A stretch of 64,000 nucleotides of DNA from Symbiodinium sp. CCMP2592 (lineage: Eukaryota > Sar > Dinophyceae > Suessiales > Symbiodiniaceae), in contig CAJNDT010001890.1 of the NCBI GenBank assembly GCA_905221615.1, positions 922,602-986,601 on the forward strand. The letters run 5' to 3'. Position 1 is the first letter of the stretch, and every line of letters starts with the position of its first letter. The notes below the pieces were generated by a model. That model was not told the DNA's origin. It did no database searches and saw nothing but the letters and a program-made list of their open reading frames with translations. Below, one piece after another: positions 5,651 to 56,055 of this stretch. The position numbers and the translations under genes are program-made.

Positions 5651-5748
5651 GCTCCAGAAAGTTGGAATATGGATTAATGGTAGGATACCCTATACTTTAC
5701 CATAAAGGGTTTAGGATAATCATATTCCACCTTTCTGGCTTTTACTCT
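5651..5748. mobile_element. MITE family 6, copy 2
   Basis: Arms CCAGAAAGTTGGAATATGG and CCACCTTTCTGGCTTTTACT; core GGATTAATGGTAGGATACCC. Close in sequence to the copy at 27999-28101. Confidence 0.75.
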
Positions 5749-7305: not shown

Positions 7306-7544
7306 ACTTATCTTACCGTTTGGGCCTAGGGCTGACGGGGTTTAGCACATATGATACAACGGCCTGAGAATTTCTTCCCTTTAGGGTTTAGGGCTTAAGT
7401 TCTAGGGTTCAGGGTTTAAGGTTTGGGGTTTAGGGTTTAAGTTTTAGGGCTCAGGGTTTAAGGGTTTAGGCTTTAAGTTTTGGGGTTTAGCCTTTAAGGG
7501 TTTAGGGTTTAAGTTTAAGTTTTAGGGTTTGGGTCAGGGTCTGA

Positions 7545-7662: not shown

Positions 7663-7949
7663 CCCAGAGACTCCAATATCCCTTAACTCAGGAATATATG
7701 CCCTAAATTATGGTAGGATCCCTACTTTGACTTAAGGTCTATTCCCTAATCAAGGAATATGCCCTAAATTATAATAGGATCCCTACAGTAGAAGCCGAAA
7801 AGTTGGAAACCCAATAGCTTCAATCCTTAAGAGTAGTATATAGGGAATCCCAGCACTATTTGGCCCTTATCCGGTTTCCAACTTTATGGGGTCTACTGTA
7901 CTTTGATTTAAGGTCCAGTCCTTACTTAAGGGATCTTGGAGTCTCTGGG
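7663..7949. mobile_element. MITE family 4 (CCCAGAGACTCCAATATCC), interrupted copy
   Basis: Outer arms CCCAGAGACTCCAATATCCC and TTGGAGTCTCTGGG. The inner part repeats AGGAATATGCCCTAAATTAT and is split by a complete family 6 element at 7795-7900. Other family 4 members: 24112-24254, 25059-25150, 30246-30420, 36336-36442 and a worn one at 60238-60421. Confidence 0.8.
7795..7900. mobile_element. MITE family 6, nested insertion with TA duplication
   Basis: The inserted element runs from CAGTAGAAGCC to GTCTACTG, flanked by TA on both sides. The empty site is visible within the same host element (GGATCCCTACTTTGACTTAAGG at about 7717-7738), so the insertion added the element plus one TA. That is the target preference of Tc1/mariner-type transposases. 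The copy at 23542 has nearly the same interior. Confidence 0.8.
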
Positions 7950-8030: not shown

Positions 8031-8093
8031 TAACCTACCTTTTGAGGGCCCCCTAATATGATTTCGTTATATAAGTCCGAAAGAGGTAGGTTA
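8031..8093. mobile_element. MITE family 9 (TAACCTACCTTTT hairpin), copy 1
   Basis: TAACCTACCTTTTGAGGG pairs with the right arm GAGGTAGGTTA; TA at both outer ends. The second copy is at 27269-27334 with the same core CCCTAATATGATTTC. Confidence 0.7.
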
Positions 8094-9146: not shown

Positions 9147-9802
9147 GCGGGTTCACTTTCGGGGGTGGTTTTGTATCGTTTTTTTCGGGGTTCGGTGTTT
9201 TTACGTACTGGGAAAAAACTTTTATGGGCAGGGGTTTGGGATAGCATGTATCGTGAACTTGTTTCGTGTGTAGTGATAACTGGTTGTTCTGGGGATTGCT
9301 ATTACTGAGTTGTATGTAATGCACGTGGTGTGTAATGATGATGATGATGGTGGTGATGATGATGATGGTGATGATGATGATGATGGTGATGCCGGCAGTG
9401 ATGATGACGATGCTGATGTAATGCAGTTGTTTGGAGTTCAAGCTGTAGAACAACATGCCAAACCCTTGGCTGTGCGTAGGGAACTTCGCAGCTTGATTTG
9501 TGTTCGCTTGAACAGAACGTCATTACTCCCTCCCCCCCCCCACCCCCCCACCCCCACCCCCCCATCCCCCCCCCACCCCCACCCCACCCAAAGAGCAAGC
9601 AGAGCACATGACCGAAAACAAAATCGACGCAAACAACGCAGAAAAGTTCAGGGAAGTTTGGAGCTTCATTTGTGTTCGCGTATCTCGTGTAAGTCGGGGT
9701 TCCCATGTTTCTTTGTTGTTCTGTTTCCTGTCAGTAGCACGCTTGCACAGGGAACTTCGCAGCTTGATTTGTGTTCGCTTGAACAGAACGTCATTACGAC
9801 CC

Positions 9803-9854
<52 letters not shown>

Positions 9855-13340: not shown

Positions 13341-13563
13341 AATTCTCAATGCCTCTACATATAACCCTAAACCCTGAATCCTACATGTGTTCATACAACC
13401 CTAAACCCGAAACCCTAAACCCTAATCTGTACTCATATAACCCTAAACCCAAAAAATAATTTTACAGTCTGGCTTAGGAAAAAAAACTAAACCCAAAACC
13501 CCAAACCCTAAACCGTATGCGACCCTATGCCCTTGACCTCAGTCCCTTTCCAGCCCTGCTCAG

Positions 13564-13609
13564 AGCGGCACTGGCGGGGCACCTGCTCAGGGTGCTTCTG
13601 GGCAATACG
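13564..13609 (+). CDS. Putative small exon
   Basis: A pyrimidine-rich tract with three CAG sites ends at CTGCTCAG|AGCGGC. 46 bases then read RAALAGHLLRVLLGN up to ATACG|GTTTAGG. The flanks are CCCTAAA on the left and a 130-bp TTTAGGG array on the right. The minus strand is also open, so the strand is likely but not certain. Confidence 0.35.
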
Positions 13610-13745
13610 GTTTAGGTTTTAGGGTTTAGGGTTTAGGATTTGGGGTTTAGGGTTGAGGGTTTAGGGTTGAGGGTTTAGGGTTGAGGGTTTAAGTTTTAGG
13701 GTTTAGGGTTGAGGGTTGAGGGTTGAGGGTTTAGGGTTTAGGGAA
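13610..13745. repeat. TTTAGGG / TTGAGGG array
   Basis: About eighteen units alternating TTTAGGG and TTGAGGG, starting exactly at the putative donor of the island at 13564-13609. Confidence 0.85.
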
Positions 13746-14157
13746 TAAAAAAACTCTCACTCAAAAAGCATCTGAGCGGCTTGGTTTACGGACTTAGGGC
13801 TCTAAAGGGTTTTACCATGGCTTTTGAAGGATTTCGGGGCTTCGGGGTTGAGGGGGCTCTCAGGTTCGGCTTTCGGGGCGGTTGGTTGGAATGATTGATG
13901 CTTGATGTGGTGATCCCAGTAGCTGTTCTTTTCGTTCTGGTTCAACCTTCCCGTGATACCGCTGTCAGCATTACGAACTCTTTCATCCCAGCTGCCACTA
14001 CTGCGAATCCTAAAGTCCTAAACCCTAAACCCTAAAGACCTAAAGCCTAAACCCTAAAGGCCTAAACCCTAAACCCTAAAGACCTAAAGCCCTGTGAATG
14101 TCACCAGAAGCCCTCTAATCTTCGAGCTCAGCCACCTTGACCTCAAAAAAAGAAAGA

Positions 14158-14265
14158 ACTACGGTTGATGATACAAATCCTGCATTACCTTAAGGGCCCT
14201 AAACTATGGGAATTATGGTACACTCCTTATTATGGATAATGCAGGATTTATATCACCAAGGGTAT
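14158..14265. mobile_element. MITE family 5, copy 3
   Basis: CTACGGTTGATGATACAAAT pairs with a right arm reading GCAGGATTTATATCACCAAG. Confidence 0.75.
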
Positions 14266-15049
14266 GGGAAGCCTAATGAATCCCGGATGACACGCGCAGA
14301 GACTAATGGAACCACTAGTGGAACTCGTACAGAATCCTGATGAAACCCTTATGGTTTGGGGCTTAAGGTTTCCCATAAAGAACCCTTATGAAACCCTGAG
14401 GGTTTGGGGTTTAGGGTTTCCCGTTAAGAATCCTTATGAAACCCTTATGAAGCCCTTGGGTCGCCTTCACGGACCACATGAGTCTGCAGCTTCGCACAAC
14501 CTCGGCGACCGGACGCTTCCGTGATGGGAGGCCAAAAGGGGAGGGTTAAGATTCTTGGGGTGGGGAGTCCTTGATATAAGCCCTATTATGGGAACCCTAA
14601 TCCCTACTAAACCCCCATGTGGGATTTCTTACTCAAGGGCTAAGGGCTCTCCACGTGTTCGATCAAGCTTGAACACGGGTTCCATACAATCTACAGGGTT
14701 CCATGAAACAGGTGCCATACCCTAAACCCTAAAGCCTAAACCCCAAACCCATTCTGAACTTAGACCCCTAGCAAAAATTATAATTTTTGCTGTTTATTAG
14801 GGATTATAATAACCGAACATTAAAAAATTATTTCTAAGTACCCCTAAGAAACCCTAAACCTTGTCTAAATGGTTTCTCTGCGGGGGTCTCCAGGCTAAAG
14901 GGGTTCTATTTCAAGGTTCGAGAGTGGCGGCCAGGGGGCTCTTTTCGGGTTCTGCAGTCAGGGTGTCGGTAGGGTCCTGGGTGCTCCAACACCCCACACT
15001 TAAGAGAGCTGCAAAACGCTACGAACAGTTATACCCATAATAAGAATGA

Positions 15050-15135
15050 TACTAATAAGAATAATACTAATAATGCCAACAATACCAATAATACCAATAA
15101 TACCAATAATAATAAGAAGAAGAAAAAGAAGAAAA
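15050..15135. repeat. (AAT/AAG) trinucleotide simple repeat
   Basis: Runs of CCAATAATA and GAAGAAGAA; A-rich and non-coding. Confidence 0.6.
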
Positions 15136-15295
15136 TATAGATTACACCTTAGACTATAAAGTGTTTAGTGCTATAGGTTAACGTATGTTCCTTTGCCAAC
15201 TCTCCCAAAGGACCCTTATCAAAGGAACACGCCTTGGAAAGTGATTGATAAGATCATGTGAAAAATCCACTCCCTACCTAATCCGTCAACCCACA

Positions 15296-15488
15296 AGCGC
15301 CAAAACGCCTAAACCCTAAACCCTAAAACCCAAAAACCCAAAACCCTAAAACCCTGAAACCCTAAAACCCCAAAACCCCAAACCCTGACACCCCAAAACC
15401 CCCAACCCTGACACCCTAAAACCCAAACAACCCAAACCCTAAAACCCTAAAACCCAAAAACCCCAAACCCTAAAACCCTAAACCCGAC
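15296..15488. repeat. CCCTAAA / CCCTAAAA / CCCAAAAA array
   Basis: About 27 degenerate units, ending at the start of the exon-like island at 15486. Confidence 0.85.
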
Positions 15489-15578
15489 ATGTTCAACCGC
15501 TTCATAAAAGTGCTCTCGGGCCGAAACATGACAGCCCGCCGCAGTGAGAAGCGCCAGCTGCACCAAGCCGTACCTTGG
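15486..15578 (+). CDS. Putative exon
   Basis: 31 codons with no stop read DMFNRFIKVLSGRNMTARRS and then EKRQLHQAVPW, with about 74% G/C in third positions against about 59% on the other strand. A CCCTAAA array ends at its left edge, and TTAGGG-type sequence follows its right edge (TTG|GGCTTAGGG). Rich in basic residues; no family recognised. Confidence 0.4.
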
Positions 15579-16123
15579 GCTTAGGGCTTTTCTTAAGAGC
15601 ACCTTGTTCCACCTAGCAGTTAAGGTCGGTTTAGAGGTTTTTTTTATCGCTCCTTTTCTCCTGCAACTGCGGTTTAGAGGTTTAGGGTTTAAGGTTTCGG
15701 AGAGGCTGCAAACGCTCTTGGGTAGTTCTCTGGGTTAGGGACCCCTTTGGGGTCATGTTTATAGGGTGCCGTACTACTTTTCGGGCCTGAACATACCCCC
15801 TTACTGTGGAAGTCTTGCCAGGCACTGTAGGCTTTTATAGGTGTAGGGTGGCCACCTAAGTGTTGGCTCCTGTTCAGATTATGATTTTCATGTACATGAC
15901 TTGTCTGTGAAGACCTGCCGGTGTTAAGGAACATCTACGAATCGCGGATGTCTATGGCCGTGCGGTGCACGTTGCCAGGCAACCACACGTCTCGGATGCT
16001 GTACATCACCAGCTGCTCTCCGAAGCCCTAAAGCCCCAAACCAGAAAACGCCTAAAATCCTCAAACCCTCAATCCCAACCCCAAACCCCCGTCCCTCAAC
16101 CGTACACCCTAAACCCTAAACCT

Positions 16124-16250
16124 GTACTTGGGGGGTCGGGGGACTTAGTAAGTAGTTAGTAAGTAGACTTATAAGTACCCTAAAAGGGACCCTAATTGGG
16201 TTATAAGTCCCTAAAATAACCAGTTACTAAGTCCCCCGACCCTTCAAGTA
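16124..16250. mobile_element. MITE family 7, copy 2
   Basis: TACTTGGGGGGTCGGGGGAC pairs with GTCCCCCGACCCTTCAAGTA; TA at both ends. The whole 127-bp element lies between CCCTAAA and TTTAGGG runs. Confidence 0.8.
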
Positions 16251-16439
16251 GACCCCTGAGCCTTGACAAGGTGTCCGAGAAGCGGATTGCGGCCCCCTCC
16301 TGCTCACAGAGCTCCCAAAAGGAAACTTCATTCGATTGGGGTTTAGGGTTTAGGGTTTAGGGTTTAAGGTTTAGGGTTTAGGGTTTAGGGATCCTACGAC
16401 AACCTATCAAAACCCTGCTTCTTTAGGGCCCCTATATAC

Positions 16440-16700
16440 CCCATAATAGGGTGTATAATAAGAACCTACACAAAAGTAGAGAGCCAAATATCCTTTAGTT
16501 CAGGACTATCGCTTAAATCATGACGGCCAGCCTCTTGCAATTTTGGTTGTTGCCCTGAATGTGTATAATAAGAACCTGCACAAAAGCCGGCTTTGGTAGT
16601 TTAAGGTAGATAGCCAAATATCCCTTAGTTCAGGATGACGGCCAGCCTCTTGCAATTTTGGCTGTTGCCCTGAATGAAAGGGAATTGGGCTCTCCGGGAT
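16440..16700. repeat. Direct duplication of about 110 bp
   Basis: The block starting GTGTATAATAAGAACCT (16450 and 16559), with AGAGCCAAATATCC, TTAGTTCAGGA and GACGGCCAGCCTCTTGC, occurs twice with small differences. Confidence 0.75.
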
Positions 16701-16955
16701 GCAAAGAAGGTACTTGACTTCAGCTTCCTTAGTCGTGGGAGCATACTGCACACTATCTATCCCTTTTCACCCCCCATTACAAGCAAAAGCCGAAATCCCG
16801 AACAGCGTTAGCATCTCTGAACCTAAGCTCGAAAGCCAACCCTTAAACCCTTTGGAACCCTCAAAGCATCGCTTCTGGCACCCTTCCTAAATCCTCTAAA
16901 TACCCCTTACAGAACTCGAAAGAGCCCTGAACCTCAAAAGGCCCCGTCCTGCCAG

Positions 16956-17015
16956 AAGGCCGCGCACCAGCGGCGGCGCCAAGAAGCGGCTCGCCGATGA
17001 GGAGAGAAGTGCCTG
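16956..17015 (+). CDS. Putative exon
   Basis: A pyrimidine tract and CCAG acceptor precede a GC-rich island that reads RRPRTSGGAKKRLADEERSA in one + frame. Another + frame and the minus frame (PVAWVSLDGQASG) are also open. Bounded by CCCTAAA-type sequence on the left and the long TTTAGGG array on the right. The reading frame is therefore tentative. Confidence 0.3.
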
Positions 17016-17047
17016 AGGCTTGGCCATCCAACGAAACCCACGCAACC

Positions 17048-17170
17048 GGGGAGGGGATCAGGGTTCAGGGTTCAGGGTTCAGGGTTTAGGGTTTAGGGTT
17101 CAGGGTTTAGGGTTCAGGGTTTAGGGTTCAGGGTTTAGGGTTTAGGGTTTAGGGTTTAGGGTTTAGGGTT
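17048..17170. repeat. TTTAGGG / TTCAGGG array of about 17 units
   Basis: One of the longest and cleanest arrays. TTCAGGG and TTTAGGG alternate in blocks, ending in seven perfect TTTAGGG units. Confidence 0.9.
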
Positions 17171-17786
17171 TTTCCTAAAGTTGATGTGCACCCTTTCTCC
17201 AAAGTAGCGCCCTGGCATTTTGCCCTCAACTTAGTGAAACATAGAATCACAGGAATTAGAGTTTCGGGTTTCTGGCTTCAGGTGTAAAGCAGGCACTTTC
17301 TGAGGGTTTACAAGCAGAAAGCTCGAAAACCGAGGTGCGAAGGCCCGTGCCGTATATCCCAAGCCTGAAGCCCTGAAGCCCCAACCCTGAGCCAGGAATC
17401 CTGCGAAAACCACCCTACAACTCTAGAACCCCTAGAACCCATGCCTGAATCCCAAACACTGCAATCCCCCAAACCACACGCAGGTGCACCAATCCAAAAC
17501 CCACACTATCGGAAGGCTAGAACTCCCAGAACCCTTTCTTTGAACCCCTCTTTGGAACCCCGACAAACATCCTCCGTAAGTCCCCAAAAAAAACCTCAAA
17601 CTGAAAAAAGAGTGTATAAACCCTGCATAATCCTCCACAACCCCTTACCGAACCCTATACACCCGTTTCTAAAAGCGCTAGACTCTAAGCCCTAAACCCT
17701 AAACCCTCAGCCCTAAACCCAAAGCCCTAAACCCAAAGCCCTAAACCCTAAGCCCTAAACCCCAAGCCCTAAACCCTTTTTACAAG

Positions 17787-17891
17787 CCCTCGCGGCCAAG
17801 GAGCCGTCAGGTGGAAGGCTTCTGGGCTCCAGGAGCTGTTGGGCGCCGCTGCCTTTGTGGAGTCCCACTTCCCAGATCCCCGGGAGGAACT
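17787..17891 (+). CDS. Putative exon
   Basis: Following TTTTTACAAG, the + strand reads RGQGAVRWKASGLQELLGAA, then AFVESHFPDPREEL, with many G-starting, G/C-ending codons. A long CCCTAAA array ends just before it. A family 13 hairpin starts inside its last codons. The protein looks helical and acidic at the end; no family is recognised. Confidence 0.4.
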
Positions 17892-17979
17892 AGAAAGTAG
17901 ATCCCCTAATTTGGGGCCCTATACTACTAAGGGTACATTATAGGAACCCCCATTAAGGGATCTACTTTTTGGATCCTCC
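17883..17979. mobile_element. MITE family 13 hairpin
   Basis: GAGGAACTAGAAAGTAGATCC pairs imperfectly with GGATCTACTTTTTGGATCCTC across a loop of about 50 bases. It abuts the exon-like island to its left. Single copy in this window. Confidence 0.65.
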
Positions 17980-17999
17980 CGGTGGTCTGGGTTTGGGGC

Positions 18000-18200
18000 G
18001 CTTGGGGTGGGGTTCTCTAAGGGCTGCAATGAGGGTCTACAAGGGTTCTATCAGGGCTTCATCAGGTTCTACAAGGGTTCTGTGAAGGCTTTATGTACAG
18101 GCTCGATCCGGGATTTGTAAGTGCTTTAAAACCGTTCTCTAACGGATCGAGAAGACTATGAAGTTCTATGAAGGCTCCATCGACGGTTTAGGGCTTTTAG
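18000..18200. repeat. Degenerate AAGGGTTCTATAAGGGCTC-type repeats
   Basis: Loose repetition of 20-25-base units such as CAAGGGTTCTATCAGGGCTT. Similar low-copy blocks occur at 780-850, 5320-5400, 31380-31540 and, most ordered, 33001-33160. Confidence 0.5.
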
Positions 18201-18489
18201 GGTCAGCTTGCTCTAATCAACTGCAACATTACTTCTCTTAGCTTCCGATGGACCAAAGTATGGTGGTGGGGTCAGTGGGTCTGGGGGTGGTACTGATACT
18301 ATAAGGATGTAGTAGAGGGCTTCCAGGGGACATTATACTCAGTATTTTTACCCCGTTGAAAACTAAGCGTTTAGACCCCAAACCCTAAACCCTAAACCCT
18401 CATAGATCATTTGTATGATCCCTTATAGGGTCCCTTCACGGAACCCTAAACCCTAAACTAAACTCTGCCCTCTTCCCTGGGCGCCAAAG

Positions 18490-18582
18490 GCACGCGCTTT
18501 GCCCAGCGCTCCGCAATGGCCGTGGCAGGCGCGGCGGTTCCCTGCAGCCTGGGATTTTCAAAGATCGTCCCAAATCCTTCAG
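18490..18582 (+). CDS. Putative exon
   Basis: 31 codons between CCAAAG|GCACGC and TTCAG|GTCAGC read TRFAQRSAMAVAGAAVPCSL, then GFSKIVPNPS. The proposed donor GTCAGC leads directly into AATATACCTTAAATTGC, a worn family 4 element, so the MITE may have supplied the intron start. Preceded by CCCTAAA units. Confidence 0.4.
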
Positions 18583-18599
18583 GTCAGCAATATACCTTA

Positions 18600-19160
18600 A
18601 ATTGCAGTTGGATCCCTCACATGATTTAAGGCATACTCGGTACTGAAAAATTTTGGGGGTCTGAACATGATGTTTAAGCTATGTTCCTTAATCAAGGGGT
18701 TTTGGAAGATCTGGGCCACGAATTGTGAACTAAGGGTCTTGTTGGAATAGGGTTCGTTTAGATTGTTTCATAAGGATCACTTTCAGGGTTGTACGCCTGA
18801 GGGGCCGAAGGGTTCGTGCAAAAGGGTTCTGTAGTAAAGGCTCAATTTTATGCGGTTGTTACGATTTGGGATTTAATGCCACTATACTTAGAAGATTGAA
18901 AACTGCAAGGAATTACTCAGGCTTCCATGTCGGCCTCATCAAGCGAGCTCGAAAAGTTTACATTTTCCGATAAGAGCAGGTCTATGTGTAGTCCATATAA
19001 TGTAGGGTTGATATGAATGGGTTTTATACGATATATTTGTGCTTTCATGGAGTGTGTATCCTGCTGCTCTGTAGCCCGGACAGATGGTGTTTGACTGCAG
19101 CACTTGTTTAGCTTAGTTTATGTGGGTCTAAGTTTCAGGATGCAAGCTTAAACACCCTTT
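18600..19160. other. Stretch without a recognised gene
   Basis: Unique sequence with a decayed family 4-like element at about 18583-18716; no open frame with coding character. Confidence 0.4.
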
Positions 19161-19230
19161 ATCATATGTATCAAAACCCTAACTCGGACAGTGGCAAAAT
19201 TGTTTTTTTCGGGTCCGTGGCCAAGGAAAT

Positions 19231-19452
19231 CGCCAAATTGCAACTAATTTTCGCCAAATTGCCATTAATTTGCGCCAAATTGCGACTAATTTTCGCCAAA
19301 TTGCCACTAATTTTCACCAAATTGCCACTAATTTTCGTGTTAGTGGCATTTTCGCACAATTGAAACTAATTTTCGGGTCCGTGACCAGGACATCGCCAAA
19401 TTGCCACTAATTCTCGTGTCCGTGGCCGAGGAAATCGCCAAATTGCCACTAA
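19231..19452. repeat. 21-bp minisatellite (GCCAAATTGCCACTAATTTTC)
   Basis: About five adjacent units at 19231-19340, then isolated units after two further copies of a GGGTCCGTGGCCAAGGAAATC leader, which also precedes the first. The 21-bp unit keeps frame and would give repeated AKLPLIF heptads, but there is no initiation context or flanking coding sequence. Confidence 0.8.
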
Positions 19453-19459
19453 ATCGCGG

Positions 19460-19600
19460 TGGCCTAGGGTTTCGGGTTTAGGGGCCTAGGGTTTAGGGTT
19501 TAAGGGCCTAGGGTTTAGGGATTAAGGGCCTACGGTTTAGGGTTTAGGGACTTCGGGTTTAGGGTCTAGGGGCCTCGGTTTGAGGTTTAAGGGCCTACTG
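19460..19600. repeat. TTTAGGG-type array with GGGCCTA insertions
   Basis: Units of about 14-20 bp combining TTTAGGG and AGGGGCCTA, at least six times. Confidence 0.75.
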
Positions 19601-19748
19601 TGAATGAGAGTGAAATTTTGTATTTTCCTAATGTTACGGGATTCTAAGGGTGGGTGGGTGTTCTTTCTAAACCATAAACACTACTTTGCTGTAAAACTGC
19701 TCGATCCGGAGCTGCTGAACCCTAAACCCCAAACCCTGTTTGGCACAG

Positions 19749-19835
19749 TGGAGGCCCCAGACTCCTAGTGCAAATTTTCGAGCAGGAGCAGTGCATCGCC
19801 CACCAGCAAGCCGGTTGCACCCAGGGCCTTCGCAG
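19749..19835 (+). CDS. Putative exon
   Basis: Between TTGGCACAG|TGG and TTCGCAG|GTTTAGGG, both canonical, the + frame reads GGPRLLVQIFEQEQCIAHQQ, then AGCTQGLR. The donor's GT is the start of a TTTAGGG array and the acceptor follows CCCTAAACCCC. The minus strand is also open (AKALGATGLLVGDALLLLENL), so the strand is not proved. Confidence 0.4.
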
Positions 19836-20093
19836 GTTTAGGGTTTAGGGCTTATCGCAAGCTGTCATGTTGATGCTTTGGCGAAGACCAGACCCCAAAA
19901 CCCCGAAACCAAAACCCACAAAGAACAGAACAAGGTCTACGCCCGCAACCAGAAACCACAAAACAGAAACCCTCAAACCATCAACTAGAACCTGGAAACC
20001 ATGGATCCTCAACCTTGAGCCCTAAACCCTAAACCCTAAACCCTGCATCCTAAACTCTAAACCTTATAAACCCTAAGCCCAAAGTCTGCCAAG

Positions 20094-20181
20094 TTCCGCC
20101 TTGAGGTCAAAGAGCAAGGAGCAACCCAACAGCGCGAGCGCCGAGCAGGTCAAGAACACCTGGGCGGTGATCAGTGATCGT
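20094..20181 (+). CDS. Putative exon
   Basis: After CTGCCAAG the + strand reads SALRSKSKEQPNSASAEQVK, then NTWAVISDRL, with about 83% G/C in third positions; TTTAGGG-type sequence follows. The antisense frame is equally GC3-rich and hydrophobic. A vague likeness to globin helix A (EQVKNTWAVI) is not enough for a call. Confidence 0.35.
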
Positions 20182-20639
20182 CTCTTTTGGGTTTCGGGTT
20201 TAGGGTTCAGGGCCCTCAACCCAAACCCAAAACCAGGGTCTCTTTTGGGATTAGGGTGCATGTTGTCTAAGGGCCCATTTCGACTGGTTTAGGGTTTACT
20301 TAGTGCCGGATTTAGAATGGAACTACATCGGACTGTGCAAAGGACCATGATTTTGAGTGTTACCCACCTGGGCTTGCGGTTTCACCTTTTGGCTTAAGGC
20401 TTAAAAATGGCGGGGCCCAGGGCTCAAAGCTTAGATGCTGGATTCTTGCGTTTACGATTTTACGCGTGGGGTTTTGAAGCTTGGGGCTTGGTCTTGGGTT
20501 TATCCAAAAGACCTAGACTCGAGACATTTGTTATGGTCCCTAGTACCGTTGAAGAACTTCCACCTTAAAGGAAACCTCAAAAGGATCCGTACAGTACCGT
20601 TACGGGAACCCTTATAATATGACGGCCTATAAGGGCTTA

Positions 20640-23661: not shown

Positions 23662-23768
23662 CTTAGAGGCCCAGGGGACTTAGTAAGTAAGTTATAAGTG
23701 CCCTAACTGGAGTTACCCCAATCTTAACCCTACTTATAACCTACTTAGTCCCCTGGGCCTCCAAGTAG
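23662..23768. mobile_element. MITE family 7, copy 3
   Basis: CTTAGAGGCCCAGGGGACTT pairs with AGTCCCCTGGGCCTCCAAG; TA on the right. Third element in a row of back-to-back insertions (23405-23768). Confidence 0.8.
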
Positions 23769-26217: not shown

Positions 26218-26725
26218 TTGGGGTTTAGGCCTTGTAGGGTTTGGAGTTTAGGGTTTGGGGTTTAGGATTTGGGGATTAGGGGCCGTGAATCCGAATATCT
26301 TGGGCCCTAAGGCCCGCGAAACCTTACAAAAAACCATTACGGGGCCCTAACCCTCAAGCCTTAAACCCTGCACGCTGAAACCCTAAACCACAAAACCCCC
26401 CAAAACCGTCGACCCTGACTTAAACTTTTCAACTCCACACCCGCACCTCGTAAAAACCGAAAGCCCTTCTTGAACCAAAATCCCTCTCAACCCTTGTTTC
26501 GAGCTTCAGGGCGAAGGGTTTTCTTACTGGCGCTTAAGTGGGAGTGGGCATGGATCCCTATCATAGTCCCTAAATTACATGATCCCGTACAGTAATACTA
26601 TACTCTGTAACTCAAGCACCCTAACCCCAAACCCTAAACCCCAAACGCCAAGCCGTCAAACCCCAAACGCAAAGCCCTACACCGTAAACCCTAAACGCAA
26701 AAAAACACCCTTAAGCATATGGGTG

Positions 26726-26824
26726 GTTGTCAGAATTATGGTCCCCTTTTGGGTCCTGAATATAGTACGGCACCTAATAATTAGGGTACCCCAAAAGGGA
26801 CCCTAATTTTGGCAACTCCCCATC
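26726..26824. mobile_element. MITE family 3 (TGGGTGGTTGTC hairpin), copy 1
   Basis: ATGGGTGGTTGTCAGAATTA with the right arm GACCCTAATTTTGGCAACTC. The second copy at 32278-32374 has clean CCATGTGGGTGGTTG-type ends. Confidence 0.65.
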
Positions 26825-27998: not shown

Positions 27999-28101
27999 CA
28001 GTAGAAGCCAGAAAGTTGGAATATCATTATCGTAACCCCTTTAAAGTAAATTATAGGGGATCCTACCATTAATCCATATTCCAACTTTCTGGCTTTTACC
28101 T
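27999..28101. mobile_element. MITE family 6, copy 5
   Basis: TACAGTAGAAGCCAGAAAG pairs with CTTTCTGGCTTTTACCTTA. One of the most complete copies of the family. Confidence 0.85.
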
Positions 28102-36335: not shown

Positions 36336-36442
36336 CAGAGACTCCAATATCCCTTAATTAAGGAATATACCTTAAATTATCATAGGATCCTTTATATGAG
36401 TTAAGGAATATTCCTTAATTAAGGGATATTGGAGTCTCTGGG
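36336..36442. mobile_element. MITE family 4, compact copy
   Basis: CAGAGACTCCAATATCCCTT pairs with AAGGGATATTGGAGTCTCTG: the cleanest family 4 hairpin in the window (107 bp). Confidence 0.85.
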
Positions 36443-40614: not shown

Positions 40615-41360
40615 AGCAATGCATGCTTGCAGTTGGAGTGATGCGCCTTTTTCGCAGCCAACCCCTCGAGACTATACTCCCAGGCAACGATGCATTCTCG
40701 GCATGCGAGATTTGGACCCAAAAGTACAAGCACCGTGATGGCCCGTGAAGCGGATTCACTGACTTCTTCAGAGATGATGTCCGAGGCCGTGGACTGCTTC
40801 GATGGTGTGTCCAGCCTCATCGTTCATACGTCATGTCGAGCTTTGCCGCAGCTGTGGAAACTCATCCTATAGAGATCATGGACGGTATCGATGCAGTCTT
40901 GCGTAAGGCCGGACAAGGTTACAAAGTACATTATCAAGCCGGGATATTCGGGAGCTGGAAAACAAGCCTTCGGCTTGCATTGAGGCATCCTGCGACCACG
41001 GCAAATTCAAACGACGACCCTTGCAGCAGCAGGCAGTTGCTCGTGTGGGCTCCAGCCAAAGTGTTCATGATCGTATCAAAGATACTTGCTGCAGTTATAC
41101 ATCCATTGAGGAGTGGGACATGGCAACTGCTACATGGTCAGCCCATGCTGAGGCCGCAAGTTCTGGCTGGCAAAGGAACATTCCGTGCACCCGAGAAAAA
41201 GTAAGAAAGGCAGAGGAAAAGGCAAAGGCAAAGGCAAGAAAGGAAAAGGCAGACGACTTGGAAGGACCGTGTGCAGGAATGCCACCAGGAAGGACATTGG
41301 GGAAACGAATGCCCGAATGTACATTAGAAAAGAAGTCAGCCTGACCTGGCAGGAGACTCT
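40615..41360 (+). pseudogene. Gag-like retroelement relic, unit A
   Basis: Opposite in strand to the genes. Short frames are broken by shifts. Near the end a Lys/Gly-rich stretch (GKGKGKKGKGRR) is followed, in another frame at 41280-41312, by CHQEGHWGNEC, which fits the C-x4-H-x4-C core of a gag CCHC zinc knuckle with the first Cys lost by one base. This order (basic linker, then knuckle) is typical of the gag of Ty1/copia-like elements. Upstream frames (EEWDMATATWSAHAEAAS) may be further gag sequence. No protease, integrase or reverse transcriptase is present. Long decayed and not expected to be expressed. Confidence 0.5.
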
Positions 41361-41362
41361 AC

Positions 41363-44300
41363 TCAGGCCCACTCAGTACGGGTCTCCTCGTCATGAAGTT
41401 CCATCTTTAGCACCACCGCCTCAGCAACGTCGTGACTGCTTTCAAGGCAGGTGTCTTCCTCGCCGACATTCTCGGCTTTGGCATCCGTTTGCTGCGTCTT
41501 GTTTCCTGCAGGCACGGAAGAAAAAGATGCAAAGGAGGTAATTCGACGCGTGGCCAACGCATCTGTGAGCTTGCTGCGGAAGCCTAGCTCCGTGCTCAGG
41601 AGGACGATCGAGGCGTTCACGTCACGGTAGTCATAGACACAGAGCGCTTCCACAACTTGTCGTACTTCCTTCTCCTGCATGTCTTTCTGGCTCTGAACGA
41701 AGTTCGTCAGGTTGTCGCAGAAGTCTGTGGAGGCTAGTGGCTTGCCGAGGTTCATGATCCACAGCTCATCATTGCTGCCCAAAGCCTTCTTGTAGAAGAG
41801 GGCAGCGATTGCAAGCAACAGCATGAGTCCGAGCACGCTCATCATCATCGCAGAGATGGCGGCCGCCAGGCTGTCCAGGACTGCAGGCCCGTCCTCAGGG
41901 TCTGGGCCAAGGCGGCCCAAACCAATTGCCAAGAGCATCACGAGGAGCAGGTTTGTGACACCGTCCACCAGGTTGAGGATCGGAGCCTTCCACGGCAAGT
42001 ACCAAATCTGCAGCTGCAGGGACAGTAGCAGGATGCCCAGCAGGAACACAAACTGCACGGCCGGCATGTTTGGCGCCGCGACAGCAGGCATGGAAAGGAG
42101 CGGTCCCCGCGTGAGAAGGACCAGGCCAAACCACCAGACATTCGGTCTAAAGCGGAAGATGAGGAAGCGGACACCTCCTTGGATTGCTTTGCCAGACCAG
42201 GAGGGAGCTTTCCAGGCAAAGAAGAAGCAGGAGCTGAGGAAGGCGCCACTCAAGGCCAAGACGGCTGTACCCAGCAGCTGCATCAGCGTGTGCTCGGCCG
42301 AGTTGCAGAAGACGGCGCTATACTTCAGCACGCTCTCGCTGCCTGCGGGGTGGCGGTAACACATGAAGGGAACCAAGCCTATGTTCGTCATCGTGGTGAA
42401 GCTCACCTGGCAGAATTGGCCGATCGTGCTCATCGTCTTGTACTTCTGCCAGGCCAGCCAAGAAAGGCGGCGGGGAAGGAGCAGGTTGGTGAGGAATGCT
42501 GTCGCTACAAGACCTGAGAGCACAACGAAGAAGAAGGCACAGTTGCCAGCGAATCGATGCACGGGGCCACCAGCAACGCAGCTGAAGCCGAGGCTGTCCA
42601 AGTCCAGGAGGAAGATCTGGAAGAAGCCGAGAAAGTCCTTGAGCCCGTTCGGCCAGGGCACTGATACGGTCTGTATCACACCCAAGTTCTGAAACAGGGA
42701 GACCATCATGCCAAAGCTGCAGGTGGTGCAAGTCAGCACACTGGCTTTGGCCGTGTAGCTTGATGTGAGGAGGTAGTAAGAGCTGACTATGCCACAAACC
42801 ACGATACTCATGCCGAGAATCCAAAGCGCAGGCAGCGCTACGCCACACTTGGCACACTGGTTGCCCGTGCTGTAGAAATTCTCGGGGCACTCGCTGCAGG
42901 TGTGGCCCACGCGGCCACCGTCACAACTGCCTGGTGCTCCCCCAGGGCAATGCGACTGGCAGCGGTAGATCTCCAAGGGTGCTTCCATGCTGCTGAAGTA
43001 CATGGGCAGCACTTCGGGCCGTTCTTCACTGCTGCTGTTTCTGAGTCGCTCCACGGTGCTTCCCTTAGGGCAAGACAAGCCCTCGCCGCAGCTCACACAA
43101 CCCAGCGATGCTTCGATCAAGCCTTGTCTACACACGCAGTCTTCCCTTCTGCTCGCAGCAAGTAGCAGGGTCGTGCGGGCCTCGTCGCAGCTGGTGCAAC
43201 CGGTCTGGCCCTCCAAGACTTGGTACGATCCCTGATCGCACACGTTACAGGTCTCGCTGCCATGAGAGTCTGTGTAACTCCCAGGTTGGCATGGTGTGCA
43301 GCTGGTCGCTGCGCTCTTTTCCTGAGAAGTCCCCGGCGCACACGGGACGCAGCGGCGGGTAGCGGCTGTGTTGTCCAGGTACTCCTGCGAGAATTTTCCG
43401 GGGGTGCACACTTCGCAGCTTGTTGCATTTGCCCTGTCCATGACAAAGCTGCCTGCGGCATCAGCTAAACCAAAGCCCGTGATGCAATTGGTTTCGATCG
43501 GAAGCCACTCTTGCCACCGCGGTTTGTTGTCTCGGACCCACCGGCATGCAACATCATAGCGCAAGGTCCCGGAAGCGATCGTCAGCAGAAGATCCATGAG
43601 CTCTCCGAGTTCGAAGGTCACCTTGGAAATGAAGCTGCTGACCCTTGGCGCCTGGTTTGCGAAGTTGCTGCTGACTGCCTTACTGATGTAGGTTCCACTT
43701 GCAGCAGTCCTCATGTTGCCCTGGGCCCACTCCGAAGCGGAATAGGGCGGGAACGTGATGAACTGTGGCTGCTGCGTGATGAAGGTTGCGTCCGGCACCC
43801 ACCAGTAGTAGAGGATGCGCGTAGTGGAAACAATCGAGACATAGTTGCCCCAGGAGTTGGCCACGGCGATTGCAGTCGGCAGGCCATAGGTCGTCGACCA
43901 GAACATCATGGCCTGGAGCTTCCACCCGATACCTGCAGTAATCACAGGGATGCACGTCGATGGGTCACTCCGGCACTGGGGAGATATCCACCACTTGTCT
44001 GCATGACACTTGGCGGCATAGTTGCCATTCGCCAGCACCCGAAGTCCTGCAGCATCACCCGTCCATCTGGCATAGGCTGCCATAGACTCCGGCTTGTAGA
44101 AGTCGGTTTCCTCGCAAAGGAACAGGTCTTGCAAGTTTATGGCATCGATGTCATCGAAGTACTGTTTGGGGTTGTGGTGCGTCAGATTGTAGCCTCGGTA
44201 GAAGTCCAAGGTCAAGCCCTCGGCGTCAAGTGCCTGCTGGAGAACACCCTTGGCGACGTACATCGACTCTTCGCCGTCGTATCCCATGCTGCCCAGATCG

Positions 44301-44731
44301 ACGGGCACCAAGTGCGGGTACGTCTCCTTCATATCTTCCACTACGGCAGCATAGGTGGCGGACCAACAGTCTACGCAGACATGCAGCCGCGTCTCGTTGA
44401 TGCCACACTGTTGATTTGTAGCATTGTTGAAATCCAAACACCCGGCGAGGGCATAAGGCGTGGTCACTGCACTGCGTCCATCCTCCGGGTGTAGCCATGT
44501 CTGGTAGCCCAACACTTCCTCAACCAGGATTCGGGCGATGTCCGATGTCAAGTAGGAAGACTCCCATGCGGCTTGGAAGAATCCAATGGGGATGTCCGTG
44601 CCGTCGAGGGCTTTGATGTGTGATCGCTCAGCCGCTGGAATTGCTTCTGGCAAACATGTTGTAGAAGCACCTCTGCTCGCGACCAGACATACCATGACAC
44701 GAAAGAACAGCCAACGCTGAAACCTCGTCAT
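41363..44731 (-). CDS. Receptor-like multipass protein with OpuAC-like ectodomain, copy 1
   Basis: 1,122 codons in one uninterrupted exon. Layout by residue: signal peptide about 1-25 (hydrophobic LFFRVMVCLVA); 36-425 an ectodomain resembling OpuAC-type substrate-binding proteins of glycine betaine/choline transport (opening IPIGFFQAAWESSY, late ILYYWWVPDATF where bacterial members have a GWTPHW motif); 438-630 Cys-rich GCC2/GCC3 or ephrin-receptor-like modules (CTPGKFSQE, CAPGTSQ, CQPGSY, CDQGSY); about 633-980 with roughly nine membrane segments; 981-1122 a cytoplasmic tail without a kinase or other known domain. Several N-glycosylation sequons lie in the ectodomain (NAT, NET, NLT). It probably sits in a surface membrane and senses or captures a small quaternary amine, but ligand and output are inferred. 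The start ATG gives the signal peptide directly. The N terminus (MTRFQRWLFF) differs from copies 2 and 3. The neighbours are its own paralogues. Confidence 0.8.
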   Translation of the reverse strand: MTRFQRWLFFRVMVCLVASRGASTTCLPEAIPAAERSHIKALDGTDIPIGFFQAAWESSYLTSDIARILVEEVLGYQTWLHPEDGRSAVTTPYALAGCLDFNNATNQQCGINETRLHVCVDCWSATYAAVVEDMKETYPHLVPVDLGSMGYDGEESMYVAKGVLQQALDAEGLTLDFYRGYNLTHHNPKQYFDDIDAINLQDLFLCEETDFYKPESMAAYARWTGDAAGLRVLANGNYAAKCHADKWWISPQCRSDPSTCIPVITAGIGWKLQAMMFWSTTYGLPTAIAVANSWGNYVSIVSTTRILYYWWVPDATFITQQPQFITFPPYSASEWAQGNMRTAASGTYISKAVSSNFANQAPRVSSFISKVTFELGELMDLLLTIASGTLRYDVACRWVRDNKPRWQEWLPIETNCITGFGLADAAGSFVMDRANATSCEVCTPGKFSQEYLDNTAATRRCVPCAPGTSQEKSAATSCTPCQPGSYTDSHGSETCNVCDQGSYQVLEGQTGCTSCDEARTTLLLAASRREDCVCRQGLIEASLGCVSCGEGLSCPKGSTVERLRNSSSEERPEVLPMYFSSMEAPLEIYRCQSHCPGGAPGSCDGGRVGHTCSECPENFYSTGNQCAKCGVALPALWILGMSIVVCGIVSSYYLLTSSYTAKASVLTCTTCSFGMMVSLFQNLGVIQTVSVPWPNGLKDFLGFFQIFLLDLDSLGFSCVAGGPVHRFAGNCAFFFVVLSGLVATAFLTNLLLPRRLSWLAWQKYKTMSTIGQFCQVSFTTMTNIGLVPFMCYRHPAGSESVLKYSAVFCNSAEHTLMQLLGTAVLALSGAFLSSCFFFAWKAPSWSGKAIQGGVRFLIFRFRPNVWWFGLVLLTRGPLLSMPAVAAPNMPAVQFVFLLGILLLSLQLQIWYLPWKAPILNLVDGVTNLLLVMLLAIGLGRLGPDPEDGPAVLDSLAAAISAMMMSVLGLMLLLAIAALFYKKALGSNDELWIMNLGKPLASTDFCDNLTNFVQSQKDMQEKEVRQVVEALCVYDYRDVNASIVLLSTELGFRSKLTDALATRRITSFASFSSVPAGNKTQQTDAKAENVGEEDTCLESSHDVAEAVVLKMELHDEETRTEWA

Positions 44732-44769
44732 GGTCTGGATGATGCGGCGCTACTTCGGCAGGGCGGCAA

Positions 44770-44794
44770 GGCCAAACGGCAGAGCCAAACGGCT
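44770..44794 (-). other. Possible relict spliced-leader pair upstream of gene 1
   Basis: On the gene strand the 5' flank, 39-63 bases before the ATG, reads AGCCGTTTGGCTCTGCCGTT then TGGCC. The first half matches the end of the dinoflagellate spliced leader (AGCCATTTTGGCTC) at 12 of 13 aligned bases if one T is skipped. The second half is a weaker 13-base repeat. Tandem leader relics are known from mRNA-derived dinoflagellate genes. The match is short and could be chance. Confidence 0.35.
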
Positions 44795-45039
44795 TATGCA
44801 GTGTTTGAAGTGGTTCTGGCTTCAGAGTTTGGCGTCCTCGAGCAGACTGACGCTCGACAGTCATGCGTCTGAATCTTGCCTGCAGTCGCCGGTGCTGGCG
44901 CAAACAAGGCAGAAGTTGCAGCAAATAAGCGCAGAAAGTAGGTTACCGTGCTGGCGTACATGCACTGAAGTAAGTCTTAGTTTAAGACGAACAGCGTACG
45001 CAGACTGCACGTGGAACCGCCGGACAACAGACAGCAATG

Positions 45040-45600
45040 CATCTTGCAGTTGGAGTGATGCGCCTTTTTCGCAGCCAACCCCTCGAGACTATACTCCCAG
45101 GCAACGATGCACTCTCGGCATGCGAGATTTGGACCCAAAAAAACAAGCACCGTGATGGCCCGTGAAGCGGATTCACTGACTTCTTCAGAGATGATGTCCA
45201 AGGCCGTAGACTGCTTCGATGGTGTGTCCAGCCTCATCGTTCATACGTCGTGTCGAGCTTTGCTGCAGCTGTGGAAAGTCATCCTATAGAGATCATGGAC
45301 GGTATTCATGCAGTCTTGCGTAAGGCCGGACAAGGTTACAGAGTACATTATCAAGCCGGGATATTCGGGAGCTGGAAAAACAAGCCTTCGGCTTGCGTTG
45401 AGGCATCCTCGGACCACGGCAAAAATAAAGACGACCCTTGCAGCAGCAGGCAGTTGCTCGTGTGGGCTCCAGCCAAAGTGTTCATGATCGTATCAAAGAT
45501 ATTTGCTGCAGTTATACATCCATTGAGGAGTGGGACATGGCAACTGCTACATGATCAGCCCAAGTTCTGGCTGGCACAGAAACAGTCTGTGCACCCGAGA
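45040..45600 (+). pseudogene. Gag-like relic, unit B
   Basis: Same sequence as in unit A with stops and shifts. The basic linker and zinc knuckle are deleted between CACCCGAGA and ATGTACATT (CCGA at both deletion edges in unit A). In one frame around 45330-45440 it reads KPGYSGAGKTSLRLALRHP, which contains a P-loop pattern (G-x4-G-K-T). That frame is broken in unit A by one base. Confidence 0.4.
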
Positions 45601-45627
45601 ATGTACATTAAAAAGAGGAGACTCTAC

Positions 45628-48600
45628 TCAGGCCCACTCAGTACGGGTCTCCTCGGCATGAAGTTCCATCTTTAGCACCGCTGCCTCAGCCACATCTTGA
45701 TTGCTTTCAAGGCAGGTGTCTTCCTCGCTGACATTCTCGGCTTTGGCATCCGTTTCCTGCGTCTTGTTTCCTGCAGGCACGGAAGAAAAAGATGCAAAGG
45801 AGGTAATTCGGCGCATGGCCAACGCATCTGTGAGCTTGCTGCGGAAGCCTAGCTCCGTGCTCAGGAGGACGATCGAGGCGTTCACGTCACGGTAGTCATA
45901 GACACAGAGCGCTTCCACAACTTGTCGTACTTCCTTCTCCTGCATGTCTTTCTGGCTTTGAATGAAGTTCGTCAGATTGTCGCAGAAGTCTTTGGAGGGT
46001 ACTGGCTTGCCGAGGTTCATGATCCACAGCTCATCATTGCTGCCCAAAGCCTTCTTGTAGAAGAGGGCAGCGATTGCAAGCAACAGCATGAGTCCGAGCA
46101 CGCTCATCATCATCGCAGAGATGGCGGCCGCCAGGCTGTCCAGGACTGCAGGCCCGTCCTCAGGGTCTGGGCCAAGGCGGCCCAAACCAATTGCCAAGAG
46201 CATCACGAGGAGCAGGTTTGTGACACCGTCCACCAGGTTGAGGATCGGAGCCTTCCACGGCAAGTACCAAATCTGCAGCTGCAGGGACAGTAGCAGGATG
46301 CCCAGCAGGAACACAAACTGCACGGCCGGCATGTTTGGCGCCGCGACAGCAGGCATGGAAAGGAGCGGTCCCCGCGTGAGAAGGACCAGGCCAAACCACC
46401 AGACATTGGGTCTAAAGCGGAAGATGAGGAAGCGGACACCTCCTTGGATTGCTTTGCCAGACCAGGAGGGAGCTTTCCAGGCAAAGAAGAAGCAGGAGCT
46501 GAGGAAGGCGCCACTCAAGGCCAAGACGGCTGTACCCAGCAGCTGCATCAGCGTGTGCTCGGCCGAGTTGCAGAAGACGTCGCTATACTTCAGCACGCTC
46601 TCGCTGCCTGCGGGGTGGCGGTAACACATGAAGGGAACCAAGCCTATGTTCGTCATCGTGGTGAAGCTCACCTGGCAGAACTGGCCGATCGTGCTCATCG
46701 TCTTGTACTTCTGCCAGGCCAGCCAAGAAAGGCGGCGGGGAAGGAGCAGGTTGGTGAGGAATGCTGTCGCAACAAGACCTGAGAGCACAACGAAGAAGAA
46801 GGCACAGTTGCCAGCGAATCGATGCACGGGGCCACCAGCAACGCAGCTGAAGCCGAGGCTGTCCAAGTCCAGGAGGAAGATCTGGAAGAAGCCGAGAAAG
46901 TCCTTGAGTCCGTTCGGCCAGGGCACTGATACGGTCTGTATCACACCCAAGTTCTGAAACAGGGAGACCATCATGCCAAAGCTGCAGGTGGTGCAAGTCA
47001 GCACACTGGCTTTGGCCGTGTAGCTTGATGTGAGTAGGTAGTAAGAGCTGAATATGCCACAAACCACGATACCAAGGCCGAGAATCCAAAGCGCAGGCAG
47101 TGCTACGCCACACTTGGCACACTGGTTGCCCGTGCTGTAGAAATTCTCGGGGCACTCGCTGCAGGTGTAGCCCACGCGGCCTCCGTCACAACTGCCTGGT
47201 GCTCCCCCAGGGCAATGCGACTGGCAGCGGTAGATCTCCAAGGGTGCTTCCATGCTGCTGAAGTACATGGGCAGCACTTCGGGCCGTTCTTCGCTGCTGC
47301 TGTTTCTGAGTCGCTCCACGGTGCTTCCCTTAGGGCAGGACAAGCCCTCGCTGCAGCTCACACAAACCCCCAGCGACGCTTCGATCAAGCCTTGTCTACA
47401 CACGCAGTCTTCCCTTCTGCTCGCAGCAAGTAGCAGGGTCGTGCGGGCCTCGTCGCAGGTGGTGCAACCGGTCTGGCCCTCCAAGACTTGGTACGATCCC
47501 TGATCGCACACGTTACAGGTCTCCCTGCCATGAGAGTCTGTGTAACTCCCAGGTTGGCATGGTGTGCAGCTGGTCGCTGCGCTCTTTTCCTGAGAAGTCC
47601 CCGGCGCACACGGGACGCAGCGGCGGGTGGCGGCTGTGTTGTCCAGGTACTCCTGCGAGAATTTTCCGGGGGTGCACACTTCGCAGCTTGTTGCATTTGC
47701 CCTGTCCATCACGAAGCTGCCTGCGGCATCAGCTAAACCAAAGCCGGTGATGCAATTGGTTTCGATCGGAAGCCACTCTTGCCACCGCGGTTTGTTGTCT
47801 CGGACCCACCGGCATGCAACATCATAGCGCAAGGTCCCGGAAGCGATCGTGAGCAGAAGATCCATGAGCTCTCCGAGTTCGAAGTTCACCTTGGAAATGA
47901 AGCTGCTGACCCTTGGCGCCTGGTTTGCGAAGTTGCTGCTGACTGCTTTACTGATGTAGGTTCCACTTGCAGCCGTCCTCATGTTGCCCTGGGCCCACTC
48001 CGAAGCGGAATAGGGCGGGAACGTGATGAACTGTGGCTGCTGCGTGATGAAGGTTGCGTCCGGCACCCACCAGTAGTAGAGGATGCGCATAGTGGAAACA
48101 ATCGAGACATAGTTGCCCCAGGAGTTGGCCACGGCGATTGCAGTCGGCAGGCCATAGGTCGTCGACCAGAACATCATGGCCTGGAGCTTCCACCCGACAC
48201 CTGCAGTAATCACAGGGATACAGGTCGATGTGTCACTCCGGCACTGGGGAGATATCCACCACTTGTCTGCATGACACTTGGCGGCATAGTTGCCATTCGC
48301 CAGCACCCGAAGTCCTGCAGCATCACCCGTCCATCTGGCATAGGCTGCCATAGACTCCGGCTTGTAGAAGTCGGTTTCCTCGCAAAGGAACAGGTCTTGC
48401 AAGTTTATGGCATTGATGTCATCGAAGTACTGTTTGGGGTTGTGGTGCGTCAGATTGTAGCCTCGGTAGAAGTCCAAGGTCAAGCCCTCGGCGTCAAGTG
48501 CCTGCTGGAGAACACCCTTGGCGACGTACATCGACTCTTCGCCGTCGTATCCCATGCTGCCCAGATCGACGGGCACCAAGTGCGAGTACGTCTCCTTCAT

Positions 48601-48990: not shown

Positions 48991-49028
48991 GGTCTGGATG
49001 ATGCGCAGCTACTTCGGCAGGGCGGCAA

Positions 49029-49041
49029 GGCCAAACGGCTT
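49029..49041 (-). other. Single leader-like motif upstream of gene 2
   Basis: Unit B has only one AGCCGTTTGGCC where units A and C have the 13-base motif twice. It lies about 40 bases before the ATG. Confidence 0.3.
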
Positions 49042-49046
49042 CTGCA

Positions 49047-51300: not shown

Positions 51301-51301
51301 C

Positions 51302-51388
51302 TTACCTTTGGTTAGTAGGGAATGGAGGAATGGGGGAATAAAAAACTACTATTACTACCATTCTTCCATTCCCTACTAACCAAAGGTA
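51302..51388. mobile_element. MITE family 11, unit B copy
   Basis: TTACCTTTGGTTAGTAGGG pairs with CCCTACTAACCAAAGGTAA: near-perfect arms of about 30 bp with TA at both ends. Confidence 0.85.
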
Positions 51389-51535
51389 AGCGATACACAG
51401 GTGCGAATCAAGTACTGTAGCATGACATGCCGGAGCCCCGTGGGCGAGATGGACATGTCGGGAAGATCGTGCATGCAGGCATGGTCCGGTCGAATGAAGT
51501 CCTCGCGACAGCGAGAGGGGCGACAACTCTGCGAG

Positions 51536-51625
51536 AGGGAGCGAGAGAGAGAGAGAAAGAGAGAAAGAGACAGAGAGAGAGAGAGAGAGAGAACGAACGA
51601 ACGCGAGCGAGAGAGCGGGACCTGC
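51536..51625. repeat. (GA)n microsatellite, unit B
   Basis: About 75 bp of GAGA with a few AAAG breaks and CGAACGAACG; the homologous tract in unit C (58598-58645) is about 35 bp shorter. Confidence 0.85.
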
Positions 51626-52630: not shown

Positions 52631-52654
52631 GCCTGCCCTTGCAGGAGACTCCAC

Positions 52655-56017: not shown

Positions 56018-56055
56018 GGTCTGGATGATGCGCAGCTACTTCGGCAGGGCGGCAA

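Follow-up and report, generated by a model that had tools for sequence, protein, structure and literature searches.

We examined a stretch of 64,000 nucleotides from the dinoflagellate Symbiodinium sp. CCMP2592 (assembly GCA_905221615.1, contig CAJNDT010001890.1, positions 922,602 to 986,601 of the forward strand; hereafter the window), in which short GC-rich islands, possibly exons, lie among arrays of the heptamer TTTAGGG and its reverse complement CCCTAAA. We observed that these heptamers tend to be polarized with respect to exons, CCCTAAA preceding and TTTAGGG following them, and that this oriented pattern is real and, on modest statistics, reaches beyond the window. The window lies within a 2.08-Mb contig of an assembly of 1,098,105,373 bases in 5,383 contigs, and its GC content of 50% is similar to the ~50% given for some Symbiodiniaceae genomes in an excerpt of PMC11114475. 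It holds 325 exact heptamers (168 TTTAGGG and 157 CCCTAAA), as against a mean of 15.35 and a maximum of 23 for both motifs together in 100 dinucleotide shuffles of the same sequence, and Tandem Repeats Finder (TRF) recovers period 7-8 tandem arrays that are common in it and degenerate. The 14-mer CCCTAAACCCTAAA occurs 83 times in the window and 487,741 times as exact copies in the 1.1-Gb genome (244,814 + 242,927 on the two strands), as opposed to just 224 + 209 copies of the reversed 14-mer taken as a control. In dinoflagellates, telomeres are built of TTTAGGG (PMC11453091 and PMC11508785, as excerpted), and the arrays are internal tandem arrays of what is probably the telomere unit of the species, as in interstitial telomeric sequences (ITSs).

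Six islands of 46-105 bp, with a GC content of 0.58-0.70 as opposed to 0.48 for the surrounding span 13500-20300, had been singled out by a prior sequence-only reading, according to which each sits to the right of a CCCTAAA array and to the left of a TTTAGGG array (Table 1). Going by the nearest exact heptamer, this arrangement holds on the left for five of the six islands, the exception being island 3, and on the right for all six, though some of these heptamers are distant; the fit is good at islands 1, 5 and 6, rough at island 2 and one-sided at islands 3 and 4. The two junctions quoted in support of splicing, CGCAG/GTTTAGGG ending at 19835 and ATACG/GTTTAGG ending at 13609, are present in the sequence exactly as quoted. 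As the arrangement is its own reverse complement, it does not indicate the strand of a putative gene, and the islands have open frames on both strands.

The coding character ascribed to these islands fared less well, and the evidence for it is weak. In Pfam searches, the plus- and minus-strand peptides of island 2 and the plus-strand peptide of island 6, the two islands covered, matched no family, nor did any of seven window peptides that included the two plus-strand ones; among five open reading frames (ORFs), a tandem ORF alone returned families. Seven joined peptide sets gave weak matches to PP-binding (L017), EF-hand (L012) and HET/TIR (L009) domains, the set from the window containing no island peptide. 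We also scored codon usage over the first 40.9 kb of the window and six further loci, which yielded 101 segments with a score above 10: their left flanks have CCCTAAA in 18 cases and TTTAGGG in nine, and their right flanks TTTAGGG in 23 and CCCTAAA in four, so that 41 flanks are oriented as predicted and 13 the other way (48 to 11 with a looser filter at an equal codon-score cut). A reversed-codon control gave 16 to 8, and 20 shuffles gave 22-47 flanks oriented as predicted and 6-27 the other way, with ratios ranging from 27:22 to 22:6; two of the 20 (22:6 and 42:12) matched or exceeded the real ratio, and codon usage was accordingly rejected as proof that the islands are coding. Since the shuffles approach the real ratio, the asymmetry is mainly a property of open GC-rich islands rather than of codon usage.

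The evidence that carries the pattern comes instead from exons fixed by a Pfam profile search of the whole genome, exon by exon. The profiles PF12774 (dynein motor; 61 matches, flanks taken from 37) and PF12780 (18 matches, flanks taken from nine) furnished 46 dynein exons, these being short-frame matches picked before their flanks had been seen; the selection did not include the matches in long frames, a number of short ones from genes with longer exons, or any of the 17 matches to PF12775. Flanks of 150 bp were taken for the first 23 exons and of 120 bp for the remaining 23. Within 60 bp of these exons, there are nine exact CCCTAAA and two TTTAGGG upstream, and eight TTTAGGG and no CCCTAAA downstream; within 150 bp, the corresponding figures are 31 and 4 upstream, and 11 and 2 downstream. 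Counted by repeat-bearing flank, 10 of 12 agree with the predicted orientation within 60 bp and two are against it (p=0.039), 13 versus 4 within 120 bp (p=0.049), and 12 versus 3, with one tie, within 150 bp when each flank is decided by majority (p=0.035), these p-values being optimistic since the repeat-bearing exons lie on few contigs (C4952, C5290, C5362 and C2135 among them) and their flanks are not independent. A hand count of flanks with at least two heptamers of one kind gave ten that agree, one of which (L055) also holds a single TTTAGGG, and one that does not (L076). By hand count as well, an exact heptamer is found in the fetched 120-150 bp flanks of 12 of the 46 exons, the other 34 having none. 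We thus show, with modest statistics, that the heptamers are polarized near homology-defined dynein exons, with TTTAGGG after the exon and CCCTAAA before it.

This arrangement can be seen at L062, a dynein ATP-loop exon (AAA_6, 1.3e-7), where a CCCTAAA array is followed by AG, the exon and GAGGGTTTAGGG; the sequence reads ...CCCTAAACCCTAAACCCAAAAACAGTATCCTAAACTCAG, exon, GAGGGTTTAGGGTGCAGGGTGTTTAGGG, with the exact splice positions being inferred. CCCTAAA arrays likewise lie upstream of the exons in L061, L065 and L066, and TTTAGGG runs downstream of those in L065 and L066.

Table 1. Islands and neighboring repeat arrays of the window. Distances are to the nearest exact heptamer on the side indicated.
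Feature	Position	Strand	Description
CCCTAAA-type array left of island 1	13363..13454	-	TRF; 4 exact CCCTAAA, a fifth at 13506-13512
Island 1, possible exon	13564..13609		GC 0.67; CCCTAAA 51 bp left, TTTAGGG 8 bp right
TTTAGGG array right of island 1	13609..13743	+	TRF period 7, 19.3 copies, 85% matches
CCCTAAA-type array left of island 2	15303..15485	-	TRF periods 8/23/31; 9 exact heptamers
Island 2, possible exon	15486..15578		GC 0.58; CCCTAAA 3 bp left, exact TTTAGGG 102 bp right; frames on both strands
Island 3, right side only fits	16956..17015		GC 0.70; TTTAGGG 527 bp left, TTTAGGG 69 bp right
TTTAGGG array right of island 3	17060..17171	+	TRF period 7, 16 copies, 93%
CCCTAAA array left of island 4	17685..17777	-	TRF periods 7/14; 7 exact heptamers
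Island 4, close fit left only	17787..17891		GC 0.67; CCCTAAA 13 bp left, TTTAGGG 295 bp right
Island 5, possible exon	19749..19835		GC 0.62; CCCTAAA 22 bp left, TTTAGGG 1 bp right
GTTTAGGGTTTAGGG adjoining island 5	19836..19850	+	exact heptamers at 19837 and 19844
CCCTAAA array left of island 6	20020..20080	-	TRF period 7
Island 6, possible exon	20094..20181		GC 0.59; CCCTAAA 53 bp left, TTTAGGG 17 bp right

The order of the heptamers along the DNA bears on whether the arrays are simply an ordinary interstitial telomere-like satellite in chance orientation, the pattern arising from the picking of islands that happen to lie between arrays. In the window together with L009-L023, neighboring heptamers spaced 100-140 bp apart stand in the order CCCTAAA then TTTAGGG (CT) in 14 cases and in the reverse order (TC) in two, which argues against chance, as do the dynein exons, which were chosen blind to their flanks and yet have the 10 to 2 split within 60 bp. 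When all pairs at 105-230 bp are counted (bins 105-195 and 200-230, with clustered starts), CT outnumbers TC by 83 to 27 in L009-L023; the window itself has no such excess (44 versus 42), which is what a satellite in chance orientation would give. The approach of the codon-score shuffles to the island asymmetry, the small share of dynein exons with a heptamer in the fetched flanks, and a flank test that is marginal and draws on exons sharing genes point the same way. Weighing these, we regard a satellite without meaningful orientation as unlikely. Genome-wide, TTTAGGG followed after a gap by CCCTAAA was found 32,079 times at 75-105 and 50,132 times at 150-180; this order alone was counted, and we conclude nothing from it.

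The sequence-only reading had gone further in taking the arrays to be the boundaries of introns with introner-type inverted ends, a view under which introners with telomere-like terminal inverted repeats would have made the introns, with TTTAGGG at one end and CCCTAAA at the other of a single mobile element. Published introners of dinoflagellates do have both inverted repeats and target-site duplications (excerpts of PMC7789003, PMC9860276 and PMC11453091). In the window, inverted repeats at both intron ends are plausible for 17016-17786 if the neighbors of this segment are exons: the two ends of the 771-nt segment between islands 3 and 4 fold onto each other (z -9.7, 20 shuffles), such that its arrays can pair in RNA. 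Nevertheless, the arrays on either side of island 1 also pair with each other over the island between them (386 nt, z -11.0). Pairing is thus no worse over an island, where the partner is usually nearer, and does not single out intron ends. Two further features may also be cited in favor of introners. In the kinase paralogues L033 and L034, a short intron has, by eye, a ~22-bp duplication of exon sequence at each of its ends, and L041, L044 and L079 share an element of ~40-60 bp (83-90% identity) that starts at or close to the end of the exon (TTGGGTAACATTTTACATG...). However, this recurrent element is not the array, and has the look of an introner family with no relation to it. Exon 9-mer duplications are hardly commoner in the dynein flanks than in shuffled ones (5 of 92 versus 3), a count confined to duplications of at least nine bases; the duplications of published introners are shorter than that in many families.

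The position of the arrays within introns is more telling. Homology settles both ends of just one array-bearing intron, which belongs to the kinase L037; the far ends of the dynein introns lay beyond the fetched sequence. Joining its three exons across inferred GC-AG and GA-AG introns raises the kinase match to 158.4 bits, with the profile unbroken from 82 to 263, as opposed to 120 bits for the last exon by itself. Its second intron has a CCCTAAA array at the 3' end only, followed by CCCAG at the junction; the first intron lacks an array of this kind, and the first exon is preceded by CCCTAAACTTCTACTCTAG. Judged by eye, most arrays do not end at splice sites: a gap of some 12 to several tens of bases separates the inferred splice site from the closest exact heptamer in L037, L061, L066, L075, L082 and, on the acceptor side, L062, the arrays that abut a junction being those on the donor side of L062 and at 19835 in the window. 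Moreover, the intron at the TTK^D position contains a TTTAGGG array in L062 and none in the paralogues L053, L059, L060, L063 and L068 (by eye), though parallel intron gain is also possible. Since the arrays mostly stop short of the splice sites, are one-sided in L037 and are lacking from paralogous introns, they look more like additions to existing introns. Hence, the notion of arrays as intron boundaries is not supported for most of them, and we consider an origin of these introns from introners with telomere-like ends to be quite improbable.

Introns of the dinoflagellate type, with GC, GA or GT donors and AG/G acceptors, are seen in the few cases delineated by eye, namely a GC-AG intron of TCP1 and the GC-AG and GA-AG introns of L037, the latter being consistent with the unbroken kinase profile. 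Three TCP1 introns inspected by eye contain zero exact heptamers. Upstream of the kinase paralogues L033 and L034 lies a stretch close to what we take to be the dinoflagellate spliced leader, presumably a relict of it. This stretch, the GC and GA donors, the telomere heptamer and the GC content are all in keeping with a dinoflagellate source.

As a further alternative, telomerase action or capture of telomeric DNA at double-strand breaks within genes would add the G strand to each broken 3' end and leave TTTAGGG on the left and CCCTAAA on the right of an insert, which could then be spliced out as an intron or part of one. The polarity would follow directly from this chemistry as it is generally understood. 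A possible instance is found on the minus strand of L017, where the 21-bp start of an acyl-carrier-protein-like stretch (the weak PP-binding match) is doubled (7380-7402 and 8052-8073) around an insert of ~670 bp that, by eye, has CCCTGAA at its start and repeats of CCCTAAA at its end. Further, interstitial telomeric insertion at breaks has been reported in primates and rodents (excerpt of PMC7215372). Conversely, the close head-to-head joins expected of such events are scarce, with just six TC and two CT among 438 neighboring pairs within 60 bp, the arrays are degenerate, and some lie in ancestral-looking introns. We therefore hold break capture to be a doubtful source of the pattern.

We tentatively favor, with somewhat less than even confidence, the alternative that splicing has sorted the arrays by their orientation within introns. 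Under this proposal, degenerate telomere-like arrays, being common in or between genes of this ~1.1-Gb genome, would arise within pre-existing introns, and those in the one orientation that splicing tolerates or uses would be retained. On the acceptor side, a perfect CCCTAAA array would be suitable in that it has no AG, is C-rich and has a CTAA core resembling a branch site, while TTTAG/GG near a 3' splice site might be mistaken for the true acceptor, in keeping with the AG/G junctions observed here, and so serve as a decoy. On the donor side, TTTAGGG could supply GT and GGG runs. The islands of the window would then be short exons separating array-bearing introns.

Short motifs around 61 homology-defined exons (the 46 dynein and 15 kinase exons) are in line with this logic: within 60 bp, there are 23 copies of CTAA on the upstream side versus four on the downstream side, and TTTAG is not found in the 30 bp upstream versus eight times in the 30 bp downstream. 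G-run intronic splicing enhancers near donors and C-rich or pyrimidine-rich 3' regions near acceptors are well known, and the flanks studied here resemble them in having G runs near donors and a C-rich tract near acceptors; they differ in that these are carried by telomere-like repeats, with a putative function. When flanks with telomere-like variants are removed (leaving 46 upstream and 51 downstream), GGG and CCC stand at 23:49 before the exon and at 67:38 after it (p=0.05 by a Mann-Whitney test), which weakly suggests that the heptamers follow a broader rule of G runs after the donor and C runs before the acceptor.

Several observations weigh against the proposal that splicing has sorted the arrays. 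The edges of hidden Markov model matches are only approximate splice sites, and the flank test reaches marginal significance that varies with the distance chosen (12 versus 4 at 100 bp, p=0.077; 13 versus 5 at 150 bp, p=0.096), with each of the few repeat-bearing contigs probably representing one dynein gene. The CTAA and TTTAG counts largely reflect the heptamers themselves, and without these there is no clear CTAA bias; likewise, CTRAY, a stricter version of the branch-site motif, shows no enrichment over the last 30 bp ahead of the 61 exons. The excess of CT among neighboring pairs does not extend to 60-100 bp (2 versus 5) or to 140-200 bp (10 versus 11). The kinase exons, from 15 loci chosen among 137 matches as partial ones, are mixed within 150 bp, with six CCCTAAA and one TTTAGGG upstream but five CCCTAAA and one TTTAGGG downstream; we read the downstream CCCTAAA at L033 and L041 as belonging to short introns near the next acceptor, an explanation that is post hoc, the exon after that of L041 being unconfirmed. 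The earlier claim that the repeats are oriented relative to splicing is supported at 10 of the 12 repeat-bearing flanks of the dynein exons and at L037, with 34 dynein exons having no heptamer nearby. Finally, a neutral insertion mechanism may give the same polarity, and the support assembled here comes from DNA rather than RNA.

Compared with known systems, the introns of interest resemble the introners of the dinoflagellates Amoebophrya, Symbiodinium and Polarella in having non-canonical GC/GA-AG splice sites and, possibly, inverted complementary sequences toward the two intron ends. Unlike these, they carry a degenerate tandem telomere heptamer that is mostly set back from the splice site, is absent near most of the exons tested and is one-ended in the sole intron fixed at both ends. 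They share with short ITSs the internal arrays of the telomere heptamer, and differ from them in the great abundance of these arrays (487,741 exact 14-mers in 1.1 Gb) and in their polarization relative to exons. Telomere repeats at intron ends did not appear among the titles and opening lines of abstracts listed from the open-access literature, most subscription journals lying outside it. We know of no report of telomere-heptamer arrays polarized relative to exons.

A more far-reaching possibility, which we consider unlikely at present, is that telomere-repeat DNA has spread into introns genome-wide as splice-signal material, with the G strand on the donor side and the C strand on the acceptor side, thereby coupling repeat turnover to intron evolution. 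If the pattern were confirmed genome-wide, it would mean that a simple repeat with a separate role at telomeres takes, within genes, the orientation that splicing requires. For a lineage whose introns are unusual, this would offer a direct readout of the constraints on splicing and might point to an origin of new splice sites; it would also aid gene prediction in dinoflagellates, where short exons are hard to detect.

Elsewhere in the window, no Rfam family at gathering scores, no tRNA in a tRNA scan and no match to the strings presumed for the spliced leader were found. The region 41,000-57,880 has zero heptamers, which speaks for the proposal that the arrays sit in introns, and houses single-exon tandem ORFs of ~1,120 aa in three copies on the minus strand (41363-44731, 45628-48990 and 52655-56017), the first of which, the copy scanned, contains Ephrin_rec_like cysteine repeats (PF07699). 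C-rich tracts occur at 9528-9590 and 9800-9852, the latter being almost pure poly-C. The repeat-rich regions also contain near-palindromic elements of 85-106 bp resembling miniature inverted-repeat transposable elements, which fall into four families, with at most 25 matches considered for each. In the window, these are found at 551-634, 5654-5738, 7665-7760, 23674-23747, 26725-26816, 28008-28092 and 36336-36441; the families are also present in L009, L010 and L017, and some of the elements hold a single CCCTAAA or TTTAGGG.

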